64,000 nucleotides of DNA from Rathayibacter sp. VKM Ac-2857 (lineage in GTDB: Bacteria; Actinomycetota; Actinomycetes; Actinomycetales; Microbacteriaceae), in NCBI RefSeq assembly GCF_013205025.1, contig NZ_JABMLE010000003.1, positions 589,332-653,331 on the forward strand. Reading direction: 5' to 3'. How positions within the stretch are numbered: the first letter of the stretch is position 1; every line of letters starts with the position of its first letter. Shown here piece by piece: positions 53,431 through 60,001 of the stretch. The notes beneath the pieces were generated by a model. The model was given only the letters and a program-made list of their open reading frames with translations, did not search any database and was not told the origin of the DNA. Both the position numbers and the translations under genes were made by a program.

Positions 53431-55491
53431 GTGGCGCATCCATCGACCTCTCTCGACCCTGACGACCTCGACCCGGACGACGACCTCCGCCCGCCCGAGC
53501 GGCTACCGGCCCCGCCGTTGCGCGCGGCGGAGGCGACCCTGCTGCTCGCCGTGCCCGCGGCGGTCGCGGTCGCGCTCGCCGGGCTGACGTACACCGGCGC
53601 GTTCTCGACCGAGACGCGCCTGATCGACCCCGGCGAGCTGGTGACCCGCGGCCTGCCGATCGCGCGGGTCGTGCACGACAGCGCCGCGTCGCTGACGATC
53701 GGCCTGCTCACCGCGGCGACGTTCCTCCTGCCCGGCCAGCGGATCGCGCCCGGGATCGTCTCCTACTCGCAGAACCGGGCGCTGCGCTGGGCGACCTGGT
53801 CGTCCGCGGTCTGGGTGGCGTCGGCGCTCGCCGTGCTGGTCTTCACCGCGGCGAACGCGATCGGGCAGCCGCTGGACGCACCGGGCTTCCGGACGCAGCT
53901 GGTCTTCTACGCCACGCAGCTCGAGCTGGGGCAGACCCTCGTCGCGTCGACGGCCTGCGCGCTGGCGGTGCTGCTGCTCACCCTCTTCTCCCGGCGGCTC
54001 GGCGGGGTGGCGGCGGCGACTGCGATCGCGGTGCTGGCGCTCCTGCCGCTCTCGCTCTCGGGGCACGCGGCCGGCGCGGACGAGCACGCGAACGCGGTGA
54101 ACAGCCTCGCGGTGCACCTGATCGGAGTGACGGCCTGGGCGGGCGGGCTCGTCGCGGTGATCCTGCTGCGGCGCACGGTCGGCGACCAGATCGGCGCGGT
54201 CGTCGCGCGCTACTCGGTGCTCGCGGGCTGGGCGTTCGGCGCCGTCGCCTTCTCCGGGCTGGTCAACGCGTCGCTCCGGATCGAGGGGCTCGAGGACCTG
54301 GGCACGCCCTACGGGCAGCTGCTGATCGTGAAGGCCGTCGCGCTGCTCGCGCTCGGCGGCGCGGGGGCCTGGCATCGGCTGCGGCTGATCCCGCGGCTGC
54401 GCGCGGACCCGGGCGACCGCCGCGCGTTCGTCGCGGTCGCGGTCGGCGAGGTGCTGGTGATGGCGCTGACCATCGGCGTCTCGGTCGCCCTCTCGAACAG
54501 CGCGCCGCCGGTGTCCCAGGACCCGGTCAGCGGCGATGCGCGGCGCAGCCTGCTCGGCTTCCGCTACCCGCCCGAGGTGACGCCGGAGCGGATGCTCGAC
54601 CAGTGGCATCTCGACGCCGTCTGGCTCGGGATCGCCGTCGTCGGCGCCGCCCTCTACGTGCACGCGGTGCTGAAGCTCCGGCGCCGCGGTGACGCGTGGC
54701 CGCTCGGCCGGACCGTGGCCTGGGTGGCCGGCTGCGCCGCCCTCGCCTACACGACCAGCGGCGGGCCGGGCGTGTACGGGCAGGTGCACTTCAGCACGCA
54801 CATGATCCAGCACATGCTGCTGATGATGGTCGTGCCGCCGCTGCTGGTGCTCGGCGGGCCGGTGCTGCTCGCGCTGCGGGTGCTGCCGGTGCGCCGCGAC
54901 GGCGGGCGGGGGCTGCGCGAGTGGATCCTCGCGGTCGTGCACTCGCGCTATCTGGCCGTGCTGTCGAAGGCGCCGGTCGCCGCGGTGCTCTTCGCGGGCA
55001 GCCTCGTCGCGTTCTACTACACGGGCTGGTTCGAGTGGGCGATGTTCAGCCACCAGGGCCACGTGCTGATGACCCTGCACTTCCTCGCGACCGGGTACCT
55101 CTTCTTCTGGGTCCTGATCGGCGTCGACCCCGGCCCCGACCGGCCCGGCCACGTGCTGCGGCTGCTGGTGATGCTGGCGACGCTGGCCTTCCACGCCTTC
55201 TTCGGCCTGGCGATCATGTCGCAGACCACCGTCCTCGCCGCCTCCTGGTGGACGGCGCTCGGCTACACCGACACGGAGGCACTGCTCGCGGACCAGGGCG
55301 TCGGCGGCGGGATCGCCTGGTCGGCGGGCGAGATCCCGATGGTGCTGATCGCGCTGGTCGTCGTCGCGCAGTGGATGCGCTCGGAGGAGCGGACCGCCAA
55401 GCGCTACGACCGCCGCGCCGACCGCGACGGCGAGGCCGAGCTCAGCGCCTACAACGCGCGGCTGGACCGGCTGGACCGCCGGGGGTCCTGA
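53431..55491 (+). CDS. CopD-CtaG fusion: copper import and cytochrome c oxidase assembly protein, 686 aa
   Basis: N-terminal part (about residues 30-400) is a CopD-like eight-helix module with HANAVNSLAVHLIGVTAWAG. C-terminal part (about 400-660) is the caa3_CtaG module with QHMLLMMVVPPLL, GHVLMTLHFLATGYLFFW and HAFFGLAIMSQT. Many actinobacteria encode this fusion. It moves copper across the membrane and helps fill the CuB site of the aa3 oxidase. GTG 53431 has GAAGGGAG 9 nt upstream; GTG 53413 is a second option. Confidence 0.88.
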   Translation: MAHPSTSLDPDDLDPDDDLRPPERLPAPPLRAAEATLLLAVPAAVAVALAGLTYTGAFSTETRLIDPGELVTRGLPIARVVHDSAASLTIGLLTAATFLLPGQRIAPGIVSYSQNRALRWATWSSAVWVASALAVLVFTAANAIGQPLDAPGFRTQLVFYATQLELGQTLVASTACALAVLLLTLFSRRLGGVAAATAIAVLALLPLSLSGHAAGADEHANAVNSLAVHLIGVTAWAGGLVAVILLRRTVGDQIGAVVARYSVLAGWAFGAVAFSGLVNASLRIEGLEDLGTPYGQLLIVKAVALLALGGAGAWHRLRLIPRLRADPGDRRAFVAVAVGEVLVMALTIGVSVALSNSAPPVSQDPVSGDARRSLLGFRYPPEVTPERMLDQWHLDAVWLGIAVVGAALYVHAVLKLRRRGDAWPLGRTVAWVAGCAALAYTTSGGPGVYGQVHFSTHMIQHMLLMMVVPPLLVLGGPVLLALRVLPVRRDGGRGLREWILAVVHSRYLAVLSKAPVAAVLFAGSLVAFYYTGWFEWAMFSHQGHVLMTLHFLATGYLFFWVLIGVDPGPDRPGHVLRLLVMLATLAFHAFFGLAIMSQTTVLAASWWTALGYTDTEALLADQGVGGGIAWSAGEIPMVLIALVVVAQWMRSEERTAKRYDRRADRDGEAELSAYNARLDRLDRRGS

Positions 55492-55520
55492 GCGGCCCGT
55501 GGGCTCCTCGGCCCGGCACC

Positions 55521-56000
55521 TCAGCGGCGGGAGGCGGCGTCCGCGTCCCAGAGGGCCTCGAGCGGGTCGTCGGCGTCCTCGCCCGCGAGGAGCTCGGCCT
55601 GCCGGCGCTCGGCCTCCTCGGCCGAGATCTCGCCGAGGTCGGCGGAGGCGCGCAGGGCCGCGGCCCGGCCGCCCTCGCGGGTGAGGAACGGGTCCTCGGG
55701 GGTGGCGTGCCGGACGCCGTCGCGGGAGTCGAAGGCGCGCGCCGTGACGCCGGTCACCGCGGGGGAGGAGGCGAGCAGGGCCATCGCGACACGGTCGGCC
55801 GCCTGCCAGGCGGAGGCGGAGGAGCCGCGCTCGGCGATGATCGGCCCGTCGGGGGTGCCGATGGTGAGCTGCTCGATGTCGGGGAGGAGGCGGAGGATGC
55901 GCGCGGCGGCGTCGAGCGCCTCGGCGGGCACGGAGTCGACGGGGCCGGAGAACAGCGGGGTCCAGTCCTCGGTGGGCAGGCGGTGCCGCCAGGTGTCCAT
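55521..56000 (-). CDS. Hypothetical protein, 159 aa
   Basis: Acidic soluble protein starting MDTWRHRLPTEDWTPLFSGP with a strong SD (GGAGGAGG). Central IEQLTIGTPDGPIIAERGSS and ALRASADLGEISAEEAERRQ segments have no recognised fold; it ends DADAASRR. It faces the CopD-CtaG gene tail to tail. I do not assign a family. Confidence 0.6.
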   Translation of the reverse strand: MDTWRHRLPTEDWTPLFSGPVDSVPAEALDAAARILRLLPDIEQLTIGTPDGPIIAERGSSASAWQAADRVAMALLASSPAVTGVTARAFDSRDGVRHATPEDPFLTREGGRAAALRASADLGEISAEEAERRQAELLAGEDADDPLEALWDADAASRR

Positions 56001-56375
56001 CCGCGCCTCCTCCGTGATCGCGTCCGTGTTCGCGGCCGTGATCGTTCACGGCGCCGTCGCGCCGTTCGACTCCCAGAAGGCTAAGACCGGCTCCCGCGCG
56101 GGTCGACCCCCGAATCGAGGGAGTGCGCTTTGCGGATCAGACGGCTACCCGTTCGGCGCGGCGGCGCGGCGGGACCGTCCCTCCGGGCGACCTGTCGAGC
56201 TGTGCGGGCGCTGTGCCGCGCGGAGCGCGGGTGGGTGCCTGCGGCGTGATGCCTGGTCGATCCACGTGCCCCGGGGTGACCCCGGAGAGGACGGTGCAGC
56301 GCGTGCCCCGTCCGCCTCGCCCGGAGGGGCGGCGCGCCCCAGCCTAGGCTGGGGCGAACGAGGCGGGGGGTCGTC
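56001..56375. other. 375-bp non-coding region before the reverse transcriptase gene
   Basis: Contains many short GC inverted segments and a perfect palindrome at its right end. There is no coding frame with matching codon bias and no tRNA. If the RT at 56376 is a retron, its non-coding RNA would most likely lie here, but I cannot fold it by hand with confidence. Confidence 0.45.
56335..56356. promoter_or_regulatory. Perfect 22-bp palindrome containing TAGGCT, upstream of RT gene
   Basis: The arms CGCCCCAGCCT and AGGCTGGGGCG are exact complements, centred on CCTAGG. TAGGCT at 56345-56350 is a -10 of the type used here, 25 nt before the GTG. The palindrome ends 20 nt before the start, with a GAGGCGGGGGG SD between. 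Confidence 0.6.
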
Positions 56376-57719
56376 GTGCACGGACGGGACGCGGTCGTCG
56401 AGGCGCTCGTGCACGCGTTCCTCGGGGCGGAGTGGACACCGGCCGGACTGCGCGCCGCCGCGGCCGACTCGCTCGGCGCCCGCCGCCGCTGGCTCGGGCC
56501 GCTGATCACCGCCGTGCTCGTCGCCTTCCCGCATCCGCCGCTCGACGCGCCGCGCGAGCTCGCGCTGGTGATCGCGGGGCTGCTCCCGGAGCGCGCGCAG
56601 CCGGTGGTCGCGCACCTCGCACCGGTCGCCGCGCGGGCGGTGCCCTCCTCCTCCCCGGTGCCGGCGATCGACGGCCGGGACGACCTCGCCCGGCTGCTCG
56701 GGCTCACCCCCGCGCAGCTGGACGGCTTCGCGGACCTCGGGCAGTGGAACCGCCGCACGCCTGTCGGTGCCGCGCAGCCCGGTGCCCTGCAGAACTACGA
56801 CCACGTCTGGCGCTCGCGGCCGGGCCGGGCGCCGCGGCTGCTCGAGGTGCCGCGCTCGCGGCTGCGCGCGGTGCAGCGGAGCGTCCTCGACGAGATCGTC
56901 GGCCTGGCTCCCGTGCACCCGGCCGCGCACGGCTTCGTCCCCGGGCGCAGCGCGATCACCGGGGCGGCCGTGCACGCGGGCTCGGCGATGCTGATCACCC
57001 TCGACCTGCAGCGCTTCTTCGCGCAGGTGACGGCGGCGCGGGTCTTCCGGCTGCTGCGCGGCGAGGGGCTGCCCGAGGCGGTCGCCTACGCGCTGACCGG
57101 GCTGTGCACCCACGCGGTGCCGGTCGCCGCGATCCATCGGATGCCCGCCGGCGGCGACCCGGAGGAGCGGGCCGCGCTGCGCCGCTCCCTCGCGCTCGCG
57201 CACCTGCCGCAGGGCGCGCCGACCTCGCCCGCGCTGGCCAACCTGGCGCTGCGCCGCCTCGACGCGCGGCTGACCGGCTACGCCGAGGCGGCCGGCGCCC
57301 GCTACACCCGCTACGCCGACGACCTCGCCTTCAGCGGCGACGCGGTGTTCGCCCGGCGGGCGGAGGCGTTCGCGCGCGGAGCCGCCCGGATCGTCGAGGA
57401 CGCGGGCTACGCCGTGAACCCGCGGAAGACGCGGCTGCGCCCCGCGTCCACCCGGCAGAGCGTGACCGGGATCGTGGTCAACGAGCGACCGGCGGTCCGG
57501 CGGGCCGACGTCGACCGGCTGCACGCCATCCTGCACAACTGCGCCGTGCACGGACCGGCCGGGCAGAACCGCGCGGGCGTGCCCGACCTCCGGGCGCACC
57601 TGCTCGGCCGGATCGCCTGGGTGAGCGCGGTGCACCCCGGCCGCGGGGCGAAGCTGCGGGCCTTGTTCGAGCGGATCCCGTGGCTGGAGCCCTTAGGGGC
57701 CGCGGGGCCGCGCCCGTAG
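56376..57719 (+). CDS. Retron-like reverse transcriptase, 447 aa
   Basis: RT palm motifs in order: TLDLQRFF (Asp210), LPQGAPTSPALANL (277-290), RYTRYADDLAFSGD with YADD at 313-316, NPRKTRLR, and the VTG motif (363-365, RQSVTGIVVNE) that is typical of retron RTs. The C-terminus LLGRIAWVSAVHPGRGAKLR matches the retron thumb. About 150 N-terminal residues precede the RT core (from HPAAHGFVPGRS at 181). GTG start. There is no effector gene next to it, and the following oxidoreductase has its own promoter, so it is a solitary transcription unit. Confidence 0.85.
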   Translation: MHGRDAVVEALVHAFLGAEWTPAGLRAAAADSLGARRRWLGPLITAVLVAFPHPPLDAPRELALVIAGLLPERAQPVVAHLAPVAARAVPSSSPVPAIDGRDDLARLLGLTPAQLDGFADLGQWNRRTPVGAAQPGALQNYDHVWRSRPGRAPRLLEVPRSRLRAVQRSVLDEIVGLAPVHPAAHGFVPGRSAITGAAVHAGSAMLITLDLQRFFAQVTAARVFRLLRGEGLPEAVAYALTGLCTHAVPVAAIHRMPAGGDPEERAALRRSLALAHLPQGAPTSPALANLALRRLDARLTGYAEAAGARYTRYADDLAFSGDAVFARRAEAFARGAARIVEDAGYAVNPRKTRLRPASTRQSVTGIVVNERPAVRRADVDRLHAILHNCAVHGPAGQNRAGVPDLRAHLLGRIAWVSAVHPGRGAKLRALFERIPWLEPLGAAGPRP

Positions 57720-57722
57720 GAT
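57717..57722 (+). promoter_or_regulatory. -10 element TAGGAT overlapping the RT stop codon
   Basis: TAGGAT uses the TAG stop of the RT gene as its first bases and ends 6 nt before the GTG at 57729, so the oxidoreductase gene is probably transcribed separately as a leaderless message. Confidence 0.5.
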
Positions 57723-57728
57723 TCAGCG

Positions 57729-58787
57729 GTGCCCGTCACCCTCCCCGCTCCGCGAACGATCGACCCCGCCTCCGTCCCCGCCCTGCGCTGGGGTGTGATC
57801 GGCACGGGCATCGCCGACGCGTTCGTCGCGGCGATCCACTCCCGCTCGGTGCAGCGCGCCGTCGCCGTCACCGCGCGGGACGCCGAGAAGACCCAGGCCT
57901 TCGCGGACAAGCACGGCATCGCGACGGTGCACGCGACGGTCGAGGAGCTGGTCGCCGACTCCGGGATCGACGCCGTCTACATCGCGACCCCGCACCCGCT
58001 GCACCGCGCGCAGGCGCTCGCCGCGCTCGCGGCCGGCAAGCACGTGCTGATCGAGAAGCCGATCGCGATGTCCGCGGACGAGGCGCGCGAGATCACCGAC
58101 GCGGGCCGCGCCGCCGGCCTGCTGGTGATGGAGGCGATGTGGGCGCGCTACCTGCCGCAGGCCGACGTGATCCGCCAGGTCGTCGAGAGCGGGGTGCTCG
58201 GCGAGCTCCGCCTGGTCACCGCCGACTTCGGCTTCTCCGTCCCCGTCGACCCGACCGGGCGGCTCTGGGCGAAGGAGCTCGGCGGCGGCGCGCTGCTGGA
58301 CGCCGGCGTGTACCCGATCTCGTTCGCGTCCTCGGTGCTCGGGGCGCCCGTCTCGGTCGTCGCCTCCGGCACCGTCGACCCGTCCACGGGCGTCGACGCG
58401 AGCGCCGACCTGCTGCTGACCATGGGCTCCGGGGCTCGCGCGCTGCTGTCGACCTCGCTCCAGACGTCGCTGCCGGTCGAGGCGATGGTCCTCGGCTCGG
58501 AGGGGCGGCTCGCGGTGCACAGCCCGTTCTTCGGCCCGAGCGGCGTGACGCTGACGCTGGGCAGCATGAGCTCGGGGCAGGACTCGGAGGTCTGGACCGA
58601 CGAGGGCCCGTGGCCGTACGGCGCGCTGTCCTTCCAGGCGACGGCGTTCGCCTCGTACGTCGCCGCGGGGCTCGTGGAGTCGCCGGTGCACCCGCACCAC
58701 GAGGTCGTCTCGGTGCTGGCGACGATCGACGAGGCGCGGCGGCAGGTCGCGGCGCAGGCCGTCTCGCTCGCCTTGTCGGCCGGCTGA
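57729..58787 (+). CDS. Gfo/Idh/MocA-family NAD(P)-dependent oxidoreductase, 352 aa
   Basis: Rossmann N-terminus ALRWGVIGTGIADAFVAAI, then YIATPHPLHRAQALAALAAGKHVLIEKPIAM with the EKP motif, and the C-terminal beta-sheet domain (GGGALLDAGVYPISFASSVLG). It oxidises a sugar or inositol-like diol. The GT4 gene overlaps its stop by one base, so the two are co-translated, consistent with glycan or nucleotide-sugar processing. Confidence 0.9.
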   Translation: MPVTLPAPRTIDPASVPALRWGVIGTGIADAFVAAIHSRSVQRAVAVTARDAEKTQAFADKHGIATVHATVEELVADSGIDAVYIATPHPLHRAQALAALAAGKHVLIEKPIAMSADEAREITDAGRAAGLLVMEAMWARYLPQADVIRQVVESGVLGELRLVTADFGFSVPVDPTGRLWAKELGGGALLDAGVYPISFASSVLGAPVSVVASGTVDPSTGVDASADLLLTMGSGARALLSTSLQTSLPVEAMVLGSEGRLAVHSPFFGPSGVTLTLGSMSSGQDSEVWTDEGPWPYGALSFQATAFASYVAAGLVESPVHPHHEVVSVLATIDEARRQVAAQAVSLALSAG

Positions 58788-60001
58788 TGCGCATCCTCAC
58801 CTGCCTGCACACGATGGAGGTCGGCGGGAGCCAGATCAACGGGATCGAGCTCGCGGGGCGGATGGCCGCGCTCGGTCACGAGGCGGTGGTCTACGGCCCG
58901 GACGGCGATCTGCGGCCGCTCGTCGCCGAGCTCGGGCTGGACTGGGAGGAGGCGCCCGAGAAGGGGCCCCGCCTGTCCGTCCGCAGCATGGCGCGGCTGC
59001 GGCGCATCGTCCGCGAGCGGCGGATCGACCTGATCCACGCCTACGAGTGGGCGCCGACGATGGACGCCGCCTTCGGACCGCACCTGGTCGACGGCGTGCC
59101 CGTGGTGACCACCGTGCTCTCGCCGGAGGTGCCGGACTTCGTGCCGGCCGCGTTCCCGATGATCGTCGGCGTCGTCGAGCTGCTCGCGGAGGAGTCGCGG
59201 CGCCGGCCGACGCTGCACCTGATCGAGCCGCCGGTGGACACCGAGCTGAACGCGCCGGTCGCGGACGCGGCGCGGGTGGCGGAGCTGCGGGCGCGCTTCG
59301 ACGTGGCGGAGGGCGAGATCGCGATCGTCACGGTGGCGCGGCTCGTCGTCGATCTCAAGCGCGAGGGGATCCTCGCGGCGATCGAGGCGGTCGGTGCGCT
59401 GAGTGACCAGGACGGCGGGGACGACCTCCGCCTCCGCCTGATCGTCGTCGGCGACGGGCCGGTGCGCGGCGAGCTGCAGGCCGCGGCCGACCGGGTGAAC
59501 GCGGGGCGCTCGCGCGAGCTGGTCACGCTGACCGGGCAGATGCTCGACCCGCGCGACGCCTACGCGGTGGCCGACATCGTGCTCGGGATGGGCAGCTCCG
59601 CGCTGCGGGGGATGGCGTTCGCCAAGCCGCTCGTGGTGCAGGGCGAGCGCGCGTTCTGGCGGCTGCTGACTCCGGAGTCGCTGCCGTTCTTCCTCGAGGG
59701 CGGCTGGTACTCGCTCGGCGACGGCGTCGACGGGCCGGGGCGGCTCGCCGGGATCCTGGCGCCGCTCGCGGGCGATGCGGAGCTGCGGGAGCGGCTCGGC
59801 GCGCTCGGCCGCGAGGTCGTCGTCGAGCGCTTCAGCCTCGCGGCGGCCGCGCGCACCCAGGCCGCGATCTACACGGAGGCGGTGGCCGCGCGGACGACGC
59901 TGCCGCGGCGCCTGCGGGGGCTGGCGCACCCGGCGGTGCGGTACGCGGCGTACCGGCTGCACCCGCTCAAGCGGCGGGTCCTGGCGCTGCTCGGGCGCTG
60001 A
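58787..60001 (+). CDS. Family 4 glycosyltransferase, 404 aa
   Basis: GT-B fold of the GT4 type: CLHTMEVGGSQINGIELAG at the start, IDLIHAYEWAPTMDAAFG, then GPVRGELQAAADRV and the donor-site VADIVLGMGSSALRGMAFAKPL with the C-terminal E of the GT4 acceptor pocket. The terminal helix is basic (RTTLPRRLRG, KRRVLALLGR), suggesting a membrane-edge location. Its start overlaps the oxidoreductase stop. The acceptor is unknown. Confidence 0.85.
   Translation: MRILTCLHTMEVGGSQINGIELAGRMAALGHEAVVYGPDGDLRPLVAELGLDWEEAPEKGPRLSVRSMARLRRIVRERRIDLIHAYEWAPTMDAAFGPHLVDGVPVVTTVLSPEVPDFVPAAFPMIVGVVELLAEESRRRPTLHLIEPPVDTELNAPVADAARVAELRARFDVAEGEIAIVTVARLVVDLKREGILAAIEAVGALSDQDGGDDLRLRLIVVGDGPVRGELQAAADRVNAGRSRELVTLTGQMLDPRDAYAVADIVLGMGSSALRGMAFAKPLVVQGERAFWRLLTPESLPFFLEGGWYSLGDGVDGPGRLAGILAPLAGDAELRERLGALGREVVVERFSLAAAARTQAAIYTEAVAARTTLPRRLRGLAHPAVRYAAYRLHPLKRRVLALLGR

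Follow-up and report, generated by a model that had tools for sequence, protein, structure and literature searches.

We find that the gene at positions 56376-57719 of the window (the whole 64,000-nucleotide stretch of Rathayibacter DNA analysed here) is real and encodes a retron-type reverse transcriptase (RT) which, together with an RNA element beside it, most probably forms a two-part retron of the class represented by the PADLOC models RT_other and RT_outgroup. In this reading, to which we give a probability of roughly 0.8, the retron consists of an RT and an msr-msd RNA, no linked effector was found, and the RNA was inverted once. Its basis is sequence comparison, namely the RT family, a conserved RNA with a conserved fold, the co-occurrence of the two, the inversion, and the finding of no recurring neighbour in 20 loci. 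That the protein is a retron RT with a cognate RNA seems to us nearly certain; that the RNA is inverted and divergently transcribed is very likely. The features are as follows.

56376-57719, plus strand: retron-type RT, 447 aa, GTG start (ORF, PADLOC, AF2 model, dN/dS)
56376-56660, plus strand: extra N-terminal segment of the RT, approximately residues 1-95 (AF2 model, superposition)
56661-57683, plus strand: RT core and thumb, residues 96-436 (domain search, alignment, AF2 model, superposition)
56360-56370, plus strand: purine-rich stretch GAGGCGGGGGG ahead of the GTG, a possible ribosome-binding site judged from sequence
56335-56356, no strand assigned: perfect 22-bp palindrome CGCCCCAGCCTAGGCTGGGGCG between RNA and RT (sequence, conservation)
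56345-56350 on the plus strand and 56346-56341 on the minus strand, within the palindrome: TAGGCT, a -10-like box with a putative promoter role on both strands
56174-56333, minus strand: putative msr-msd RNA, inverted relative to the RT (conservation, covariation, RNA models R1 and R2)
56317-56333, minus strand: a1 arm, 5' end of the RNA (inverted repeat)
56316, minus strand: candidate priming guanosine, the first unpaired G after a1 (alignment A1, invariant in 37 of 37; analogy with known retrons)
56289-56313, minus strand: msr hairpin 1, stem covarying (covariation)
56269-56287, minus strand: msr hairpin 2, CTCCGGGGTCACCCCGGGG, stem near-invariant (alignment)
56204-56242, minus strand: msd-like long hairpin, the predicted template (covariation)
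56174-56190, minus strand: a2 arm, 3' end of the RNA (inverted repeat)

A first-pass annotation had read the protein as an RT with YADD, VTG and a retron-like thumb, and alignment, PADLOC and an AF2 model, superposed on solved retron RTs with VIA-align, bear this out. The protein matches RVT_1 (Pfam, 2.4e-17) and is the single PF00078 match in the 4.6-Mb genome, and both YADD and the region-Y VTG are invariant in all 35 aligned RT sequences, as befits the retron clade. It is matched over nearly its whole length by PADLOC RT_other (1.1e-164; residues 3-438 on profile positions 67-472 of 481) and RT_outgroup (7.8e-156; residues 5-436 on positions 5-407 of 407), and the best numbered type is RT_XIII, with 262 bits over residues 153-434 in the RT core. 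Region X reads GAAVH at residues 196-200, with A197 and H200 invariant in the alignment and G196 kept in at least 90%; the motif expected of retron RTs at this place is NAxxH, and we count the departure to GAxxH against the retron reading. Six NCBIfam models (three retron, one group II, two DRT) all scored under their own cut-offs. A group II intron RT was rejected (TIGR04416 reached 50 bits where the cut-off is 300, and Rfam matched nothing in 54000-60000), as was a DRT or UG-type RT, for which two DRT families were compared (Drt2, 35 bits against 390; Drt3a, 17.6 against 200). The whole gene is under purifying selection, with dN/dS of 0.17-0.31 in nine pairs. At one Rathayibacter locus (L010, genome G009) the first 25 or so RT residues are out of frame and the remainder is 94% identical.

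When the upstream regions of 10 Rathayibacter loci were aligned, positions 56174-56333 stood out as a sharply bounded block with a mean pairwise identity of 0.90; the corresponding values were 0.37 for 56001-56173, 0.58 for 55776-56000, 0.53 for 56357-56375 and 0.89 for the first 60 bases of the gene. The block is bounded by terminal inverted repeats (a1/a2, 16-nt arms, 94% complementary) of the kind that retrons have, and its common fold comprises the a1/a2 stem, hairpin 1, the near-invariant hairpin 2 and a long msd-like hairpin. Two unpaired G residues directly after a1 are invariant in 37 of 37 RNAs; the priming context here, GAGG, is absent from those listed for known retrons (TAGC, CAGA, CAGC, GAGC, ACGC) in PMC6868368. 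Among 36 distinct rows, 25 of 40 pairs changed on both sides, including 13 of 15 in the terminal helices; paired cells amounted to 95.2%, against 40.5-47.9% with slid partners, the covariation score was 0.389 against 0.058-0.088, and none of 500 shuffles reached the fold on any of five measures. The first-pass annotation had proposed a covarying RNA in homologs and had pointed to 56001-56375 or the DNA downstream of the RT as its place. The former stretch does contain it, by homology on the minus strand; downstream, 420 bp aligned in three groups held nothing common between groups, and the stretch that one group shares there resembles a neighbouring gene. The same annotation had held that homologs lacking a conserved RNA, together with a group II or UG-type match, would refute a retron, and what we found is a conserved RNA and scores of such models far under their cut-offs.

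The set behind these alignments comprised 38 loci (L008-L045), and the anchor hairpin was found upstream of the RT in 37 of them, the remaining one (L043) having only about 100 nt upstream. Alignment A1 omits L043; alignment A2 and the RT tree omit L010 (start out of frame), L017 (contig end) and L028, and A5 omits all four. In two other genera the RNA element sits between a TANNNT box and the RT start. Rfam 15 gave no match to the RNA in the window stretch or in seven loci. At 32 of 43 non-inverted loci (L018-L062) the a1 arm opens with an ATG or GTG, 6-7 nt downstream of a TANNNT box, an arrangement that resembles leaderless mRNAs; in 30 of the 32 the reading frame of this codon stays open across the RNA (the other two frames in 20 and 21), and in 12 loci it joins the RT frame, in some as the sole in-frame start found. 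A coding role for the RNA was considered and not built upon, since the rows share ancestry and control frames, too, are open in two-thirds of cases.

The RNA and the RT occur together. Among 299 Microbacteriaceae genomes, RNA model R1 has one match each in 35 (the window RNA, whose sequence belongs to the R1 training set, scores 137 bits at 56172-56336 on the minus strand), while a search with the RT found any match in 39 and a full-length RT in 35; the two lists of 35 are identical, and six of these genomes (G021, G111, G159, G165, G196 and G221) lie outside the training set. The RNA adjoins the RT in 34 of the 35, and in G165 the two are on separate contigs, with the RT close to the end of its own. 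Partial matches to the RT core, at 31-42% identity, were seen in G063, G087, G153 and G186, none of which has an R1 match, and as a second match in G134. Within Rathayibacter, RT and RNA are present in the same 12 of 15 genomes; in two other genera the RNA was found in 7 of 8 and 41 of 60 genomes, counted as presence of the RNA, not as adjacency to the RT.

Beyond the family, and in each case outside the training set, R1 placed an RNA directly upstream on the RT strand at all 13 loci from other families of the order and, for other orders and classes, at three of four loci with E 3.4e-5 or better, the match at the fourth having E 0.029. At the distant locus L007 R1 had no match. Twelve plasmid-borne RTs were found, and in the three tested, likewise outside the training set, the RNA is upstream on the RT strand (Tsukamurella, 1.5e-12; Dietzia, 1.5e-11; Burkholderia, 5e-6). 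The last of these, on a Burkholderia pyrrocinia plasmid record (L165:5384-6915), has an RT of the same class with a related RNA directly upstream, so that the RT class crosses phyla; the relatives from Tsukamurella, Dietzia, Burkholderia and two other Microbacteriaceae genomes also match RT_other and RT_outgroup best among the PADLOC models. A mobile origin was considered and rejected: among 50,697 phage and 72,556 plasmid records the best match covers 74% of the RT and none reaches 80%, and of 364 relatives in IMG/VR, the 80 listed show an identity of at most 36%.

A partner gene was sought in 20 loci of about 17 kb (about 8 kb either way) from 20 genomes: three inverted and two non-inverted Rathayibacter and 15 others. 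Clustering at E 1e-15 and 30% identity, which would overlook smaller or more divergent proteins, yielded no recurring partner of at least 60 aa, and the RT was the sole gene family common to most of the loci. The other clusters present in more than four loci were discarded as opposite-strand frames of the RT; chaining had pulled the left-hand Rathayibacter neighbour and one distant ORF into them. Three further clusters recur in four loci at scattered positions. In the window the neighbours are a CopD/CtaG-type membrane protein, a 159-aa protein (a sub-threshold match to GvpG only), a Gfo/Idh/MocA oxidoreductase and a glycosyltransferase, and PADLOC matched none of four neighbouring ORFs scanned. 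Neither a type-specific effector gene nor a fused effector domain of the numbered, tripartite types I-XIII was found, and the earlier view of a solitary RT stands as far as tested. The region of the 159-aa protein, which lies left of the retron (55521-56000, minus strand), aligns in 7 of the 10 inverted Rathayibacter loci; the upstream flanks of the other three differ, so that the retron has probably moved.

Retrons typically include a toxic effector, according to PMC12548924, and none recurs here. One explanation is that the effector is unlinked and separately encoded, or is a general host factor, the whole acting as a chromosomally settled anti-phage sensor, which the frequency of the RNA in the three genera (12/15, 7/8, 41/60) would fit; no candidate has come forward, however, and we put this explanation at a little under even odds.

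Another explanation places the effector within the RT itself. The first-pass annotation had counted about 150 extra N-terminal residues and suggested a fused effector, but the superposition reduces the extra length to about 90 residues, which the AF2 model folds into four short helices (4-16, 22-33, 40-50 and 59-69) followed by a linker. Were this segment a toxin, the gene would be a single-gene defence system, which would suit the finding of no linked effector; the segment is also present in the aligned relatives (32 of 34 matches in the 299 family genomes lie inside a homologous RT gene, the other two being marginal) and is under purifying selection in eight of nine pairs (dN/dS 0.19-0.36). 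Against this, only one of its residues, W20, is invariant, constraint is weaker between L018 and L019 (0.61), the domain search that had been suggested for it gave no Pfam match (RVT_1 is the sole Pfam domain of the RT), and sequence profiles gave no PDB relative below E 0.08. A fused effector is thus unlikely. The N-terminus is probably not an enzyme, and the modelled helices most likely serve in structure or in binding a partner, and not as a toxin.

The orientation of the RNA sets the main Rathayibacter clade apart. In every relative outside it where the RNA was found, one Burkholderia included, the RNA is co-directional with the RT. Where the full-length RNA was aligned, it lies opposite the RT at 10 loci and on the RT strand at 27, and the 10 align with the 27 solely as reverse complements; among the 34 contig-sharing pairs of the family set, 30 are on the same strand and four on opposite strands, all four in Rathayibacter, where 10 of the 12 genomes with both parts have the inverted arrangement. 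To avoid circularity, a second RNA model, R2, was built from the 27 non-inverted RNAs alone. It scored 107-123 bits at all 10 inverted loci on the strand opposite the RT (115 bits on the minus strand at L008, a sequence outside its training set) and at most 18.1 bits on the RT strand, that match covering model positions 25-69 only. A tree of 35 RTs, which includes eight of the 10 inverted loci, groups these eight in one clade (support 100/100) to the exclusion of the two non-inverted Rathayibacter RTs, a pattern for which one inversion suffices. On these alignments and this tree, the RNA gene appears to have been turned round a single time, in the common ancestor of the main Rathayibacter clade. 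The anchor hairpin is nearly palindromic. Judged by fewest mismatches, it assigns the minus strand to 9 of the 10 loci of the main Rathayibacter clade and the plus strand to 26 of the 27 remaining ones; L009 and L041 are ties, and this short hairpin by itself is insufficient for assigning the strand.

Folding energy gives the minus strand no support in the inverted clade. The window element has a folding energy of -103.7 (z -3.7) on the plus strand and -89.3 (z -1.8) on the minus strand, and at each of the 10 inverted loci the plus strand has the better fold; since the antisense likewise has it at 22 of the 27 non-inverted loci, minimum energy does not pick the strand. On the common fold, the sense strand is more stable for 26 of 27 non-inverted RNAs, while at the inverted loci the minus strand is the more stable in 2 and the plus strand in 8 of 10, with differences of up to 5 kcal/mol. 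With the conserved U-G pair excluded, G-U stands to A-C at 32 to 13 in the non-inverted RNAs, as expected for a sense strand, and at 0 to 10, over four pair positions, in the inverted clade, within which only three pairs show compensatory changes. Given the energies, the pair counts and the few compensatory changes, it is homology, and not the fold, that assigns the strand in the inverted clade. These results also form the case for a rival proposal, in which the RT of inverted Rathayibacter binds the reverse complement of the RNA, transcribed jointly with the RT gene from a promoter farther upstream: the plus strand is favoured by energy as just described, and the A-C mismatches of the minus strand turn into G-U on the plus strand. 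The R2 scores speak against it, as does the antisense preference of the non-inverted loci, and the GG after a1, the order of the hairpins and the -10-like box before a1 match the other genera solely on the minus strand, which makes the proposal improbable.

Between the inverted RNA and the RT lies the perfect palindrome. Its core, CAGCCTAGGCTG at 56340-56351, has a mean pairwise identity of 0.967 over the 10 loci, compared with 0.73 for all 22 bp, and on the minus strand TAGGCT lies 7 nt before a1, so that the inverted unit includes its own -10-like box. L017 departs from this in the plus-side half of the core and has a further TAGGCT closer to the RT. A scan for sigma-70-type promoters or terminators found none, and the promoter reading therefore rests on the TANNNT boxes. 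A palindrome with TAGGCT on both strands and a conserved core makes a promoter for both genes likely, and we consider it likely, from sequence, that one promoter serves RNA and RT. We consider it improbable that retron function was lost in Rathayibacter and that the element survives there solely to regulate the RT in cis through the palindrome. For this, the inverted position, the conserved core and a fold that no longer favours the sense strand can be cited, but the full 160 nt, beyond the palindrome, are held at 0.90 mean identity, a few compensatory changes persist and the RT is under purifying selection.

Under the preferred reading of a two-part retron with a divergent RNA, RNA polymerase would start at the palindromic -10 region and transcribe the RT rightwards and the RNA leftwards. 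The a1/a2 stem of the RNA would close and, by analogy with known retrons, the RT would bind the msr hairpins and use the 2'-OH of the invariant G at 56316, immediately beyond a1, for priming. Copying of the msd hairpin, from a template that begins at about 56191 and stops short of 56268, would then give a short, branched msDNA. Plus-strand sequence from 56191 onwards would form the start of the cDNA, whose length would be 77 nt if copying continued as far as 56267. As no effector is linked, the msDNA particle most likely acts through an unlinked host protein or as a sensor. That the retron occurs in the majority of genomes sampled from some genera points to a host-adapted role, for which phage defence would be the leading guess, at about an even chance.

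The full picture, in which msr-msd and RT diverge from one palindromic bidirectional promoter after a single inversion, within a two-part class that pairs an RT bearing the N-terminal helical module with a conserved RNA of about 165 nt, has no linked effector and extends over Actinomycetota and at least one Burkholderia, is one that we hold, as a reading of sequences, to be somewhat better than a coin toss. If true, the inversion uncouples the dosage of RNA and RT and may put both under one dimeric regulator, and the msDNA particle would act without a linked toxin. The inversion is also a natural experiment which suggests that RT and RNA need no common transcript.

A solitary RT with an N-terminal extension is not new, since both traits have been described: in PMC6868368, the RTs of the myxobacterial retrons Mx162, Mx65, Sa163 and Ne144 have an extended N-terminal region of unknown function, and in PMC12548924, lone retron RTs without a typed effector are noted. 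The departure from known types that the first-pass annotation had seen in the N-terminus is therefore not upheld, the more so as the RT fits RT_other and RT_outgroup nearly end to end. PMC6868368 also reports msDNA in 27 of 28 tested myxobacterial strains, with vertical inheritance likely, and putative retrons from Actinobacteria; PMC12548924 describes other retrons as restraining a toxic effector until a trigger appears. As far as searched in the open-licence literature, what appears to be new is the covarying RNA of the RT_other/RT_outgroup class, the occurrence of that RNA both in Actinomycetota and in at least one Burkholderia, and its probable inverted arrangement in Rathayibacter; in that literature, titles and abstract openings made no mention of an inverted msr-msd, and no paper on a retron RT of Microbacteriaceae was found. 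Retrons of this class stand in a defence database without a named partner, their RNA is absent from Rfam, and the RNA, its model and about 60 natural RT-RNA pairs now make the class directly testable for msDNA and function. If the pair works without a linked effector, the long-standing puzzle of the role of msDNA in retrons of the myxobacterial type, where no toxin is linked, could become approachable in actinobacteria.

Myxobacterial retrons of the Mx162 type have their msr-msd upstream, in the RT's own direction, and to our knowledge no linked effector. The Rathayibacter retron is like Mxa1 (Mx162), Mxa2 (Mx65), Sau1 (Sa163) and Nex2 (Ne144) in the extended N-terminus of its RT, a likeness by description only, and unlike these co-directional retrons in that its RNA is inverted in the main Rathayibacter clade. 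Retron-Eco1 (Ec86; RT-msDNA complexes 7v9u and 7v9x) differs from it by a separate effector and by lacking the additional N-terminal helices that precede the aligned part here. Retron type XIII (PADLOC RT_XIII), although the best numbered type, scores less than half of RT_other, and, unlike type XIII, the Rathayibacter RT has no recurring partner genes beside it. Its likeness is to PADLOC RT_other (PDLC02949) and RT_outgroup (PDLC03740), neither of which names a partner; the match to both is nearly full-length, N-terminus included.
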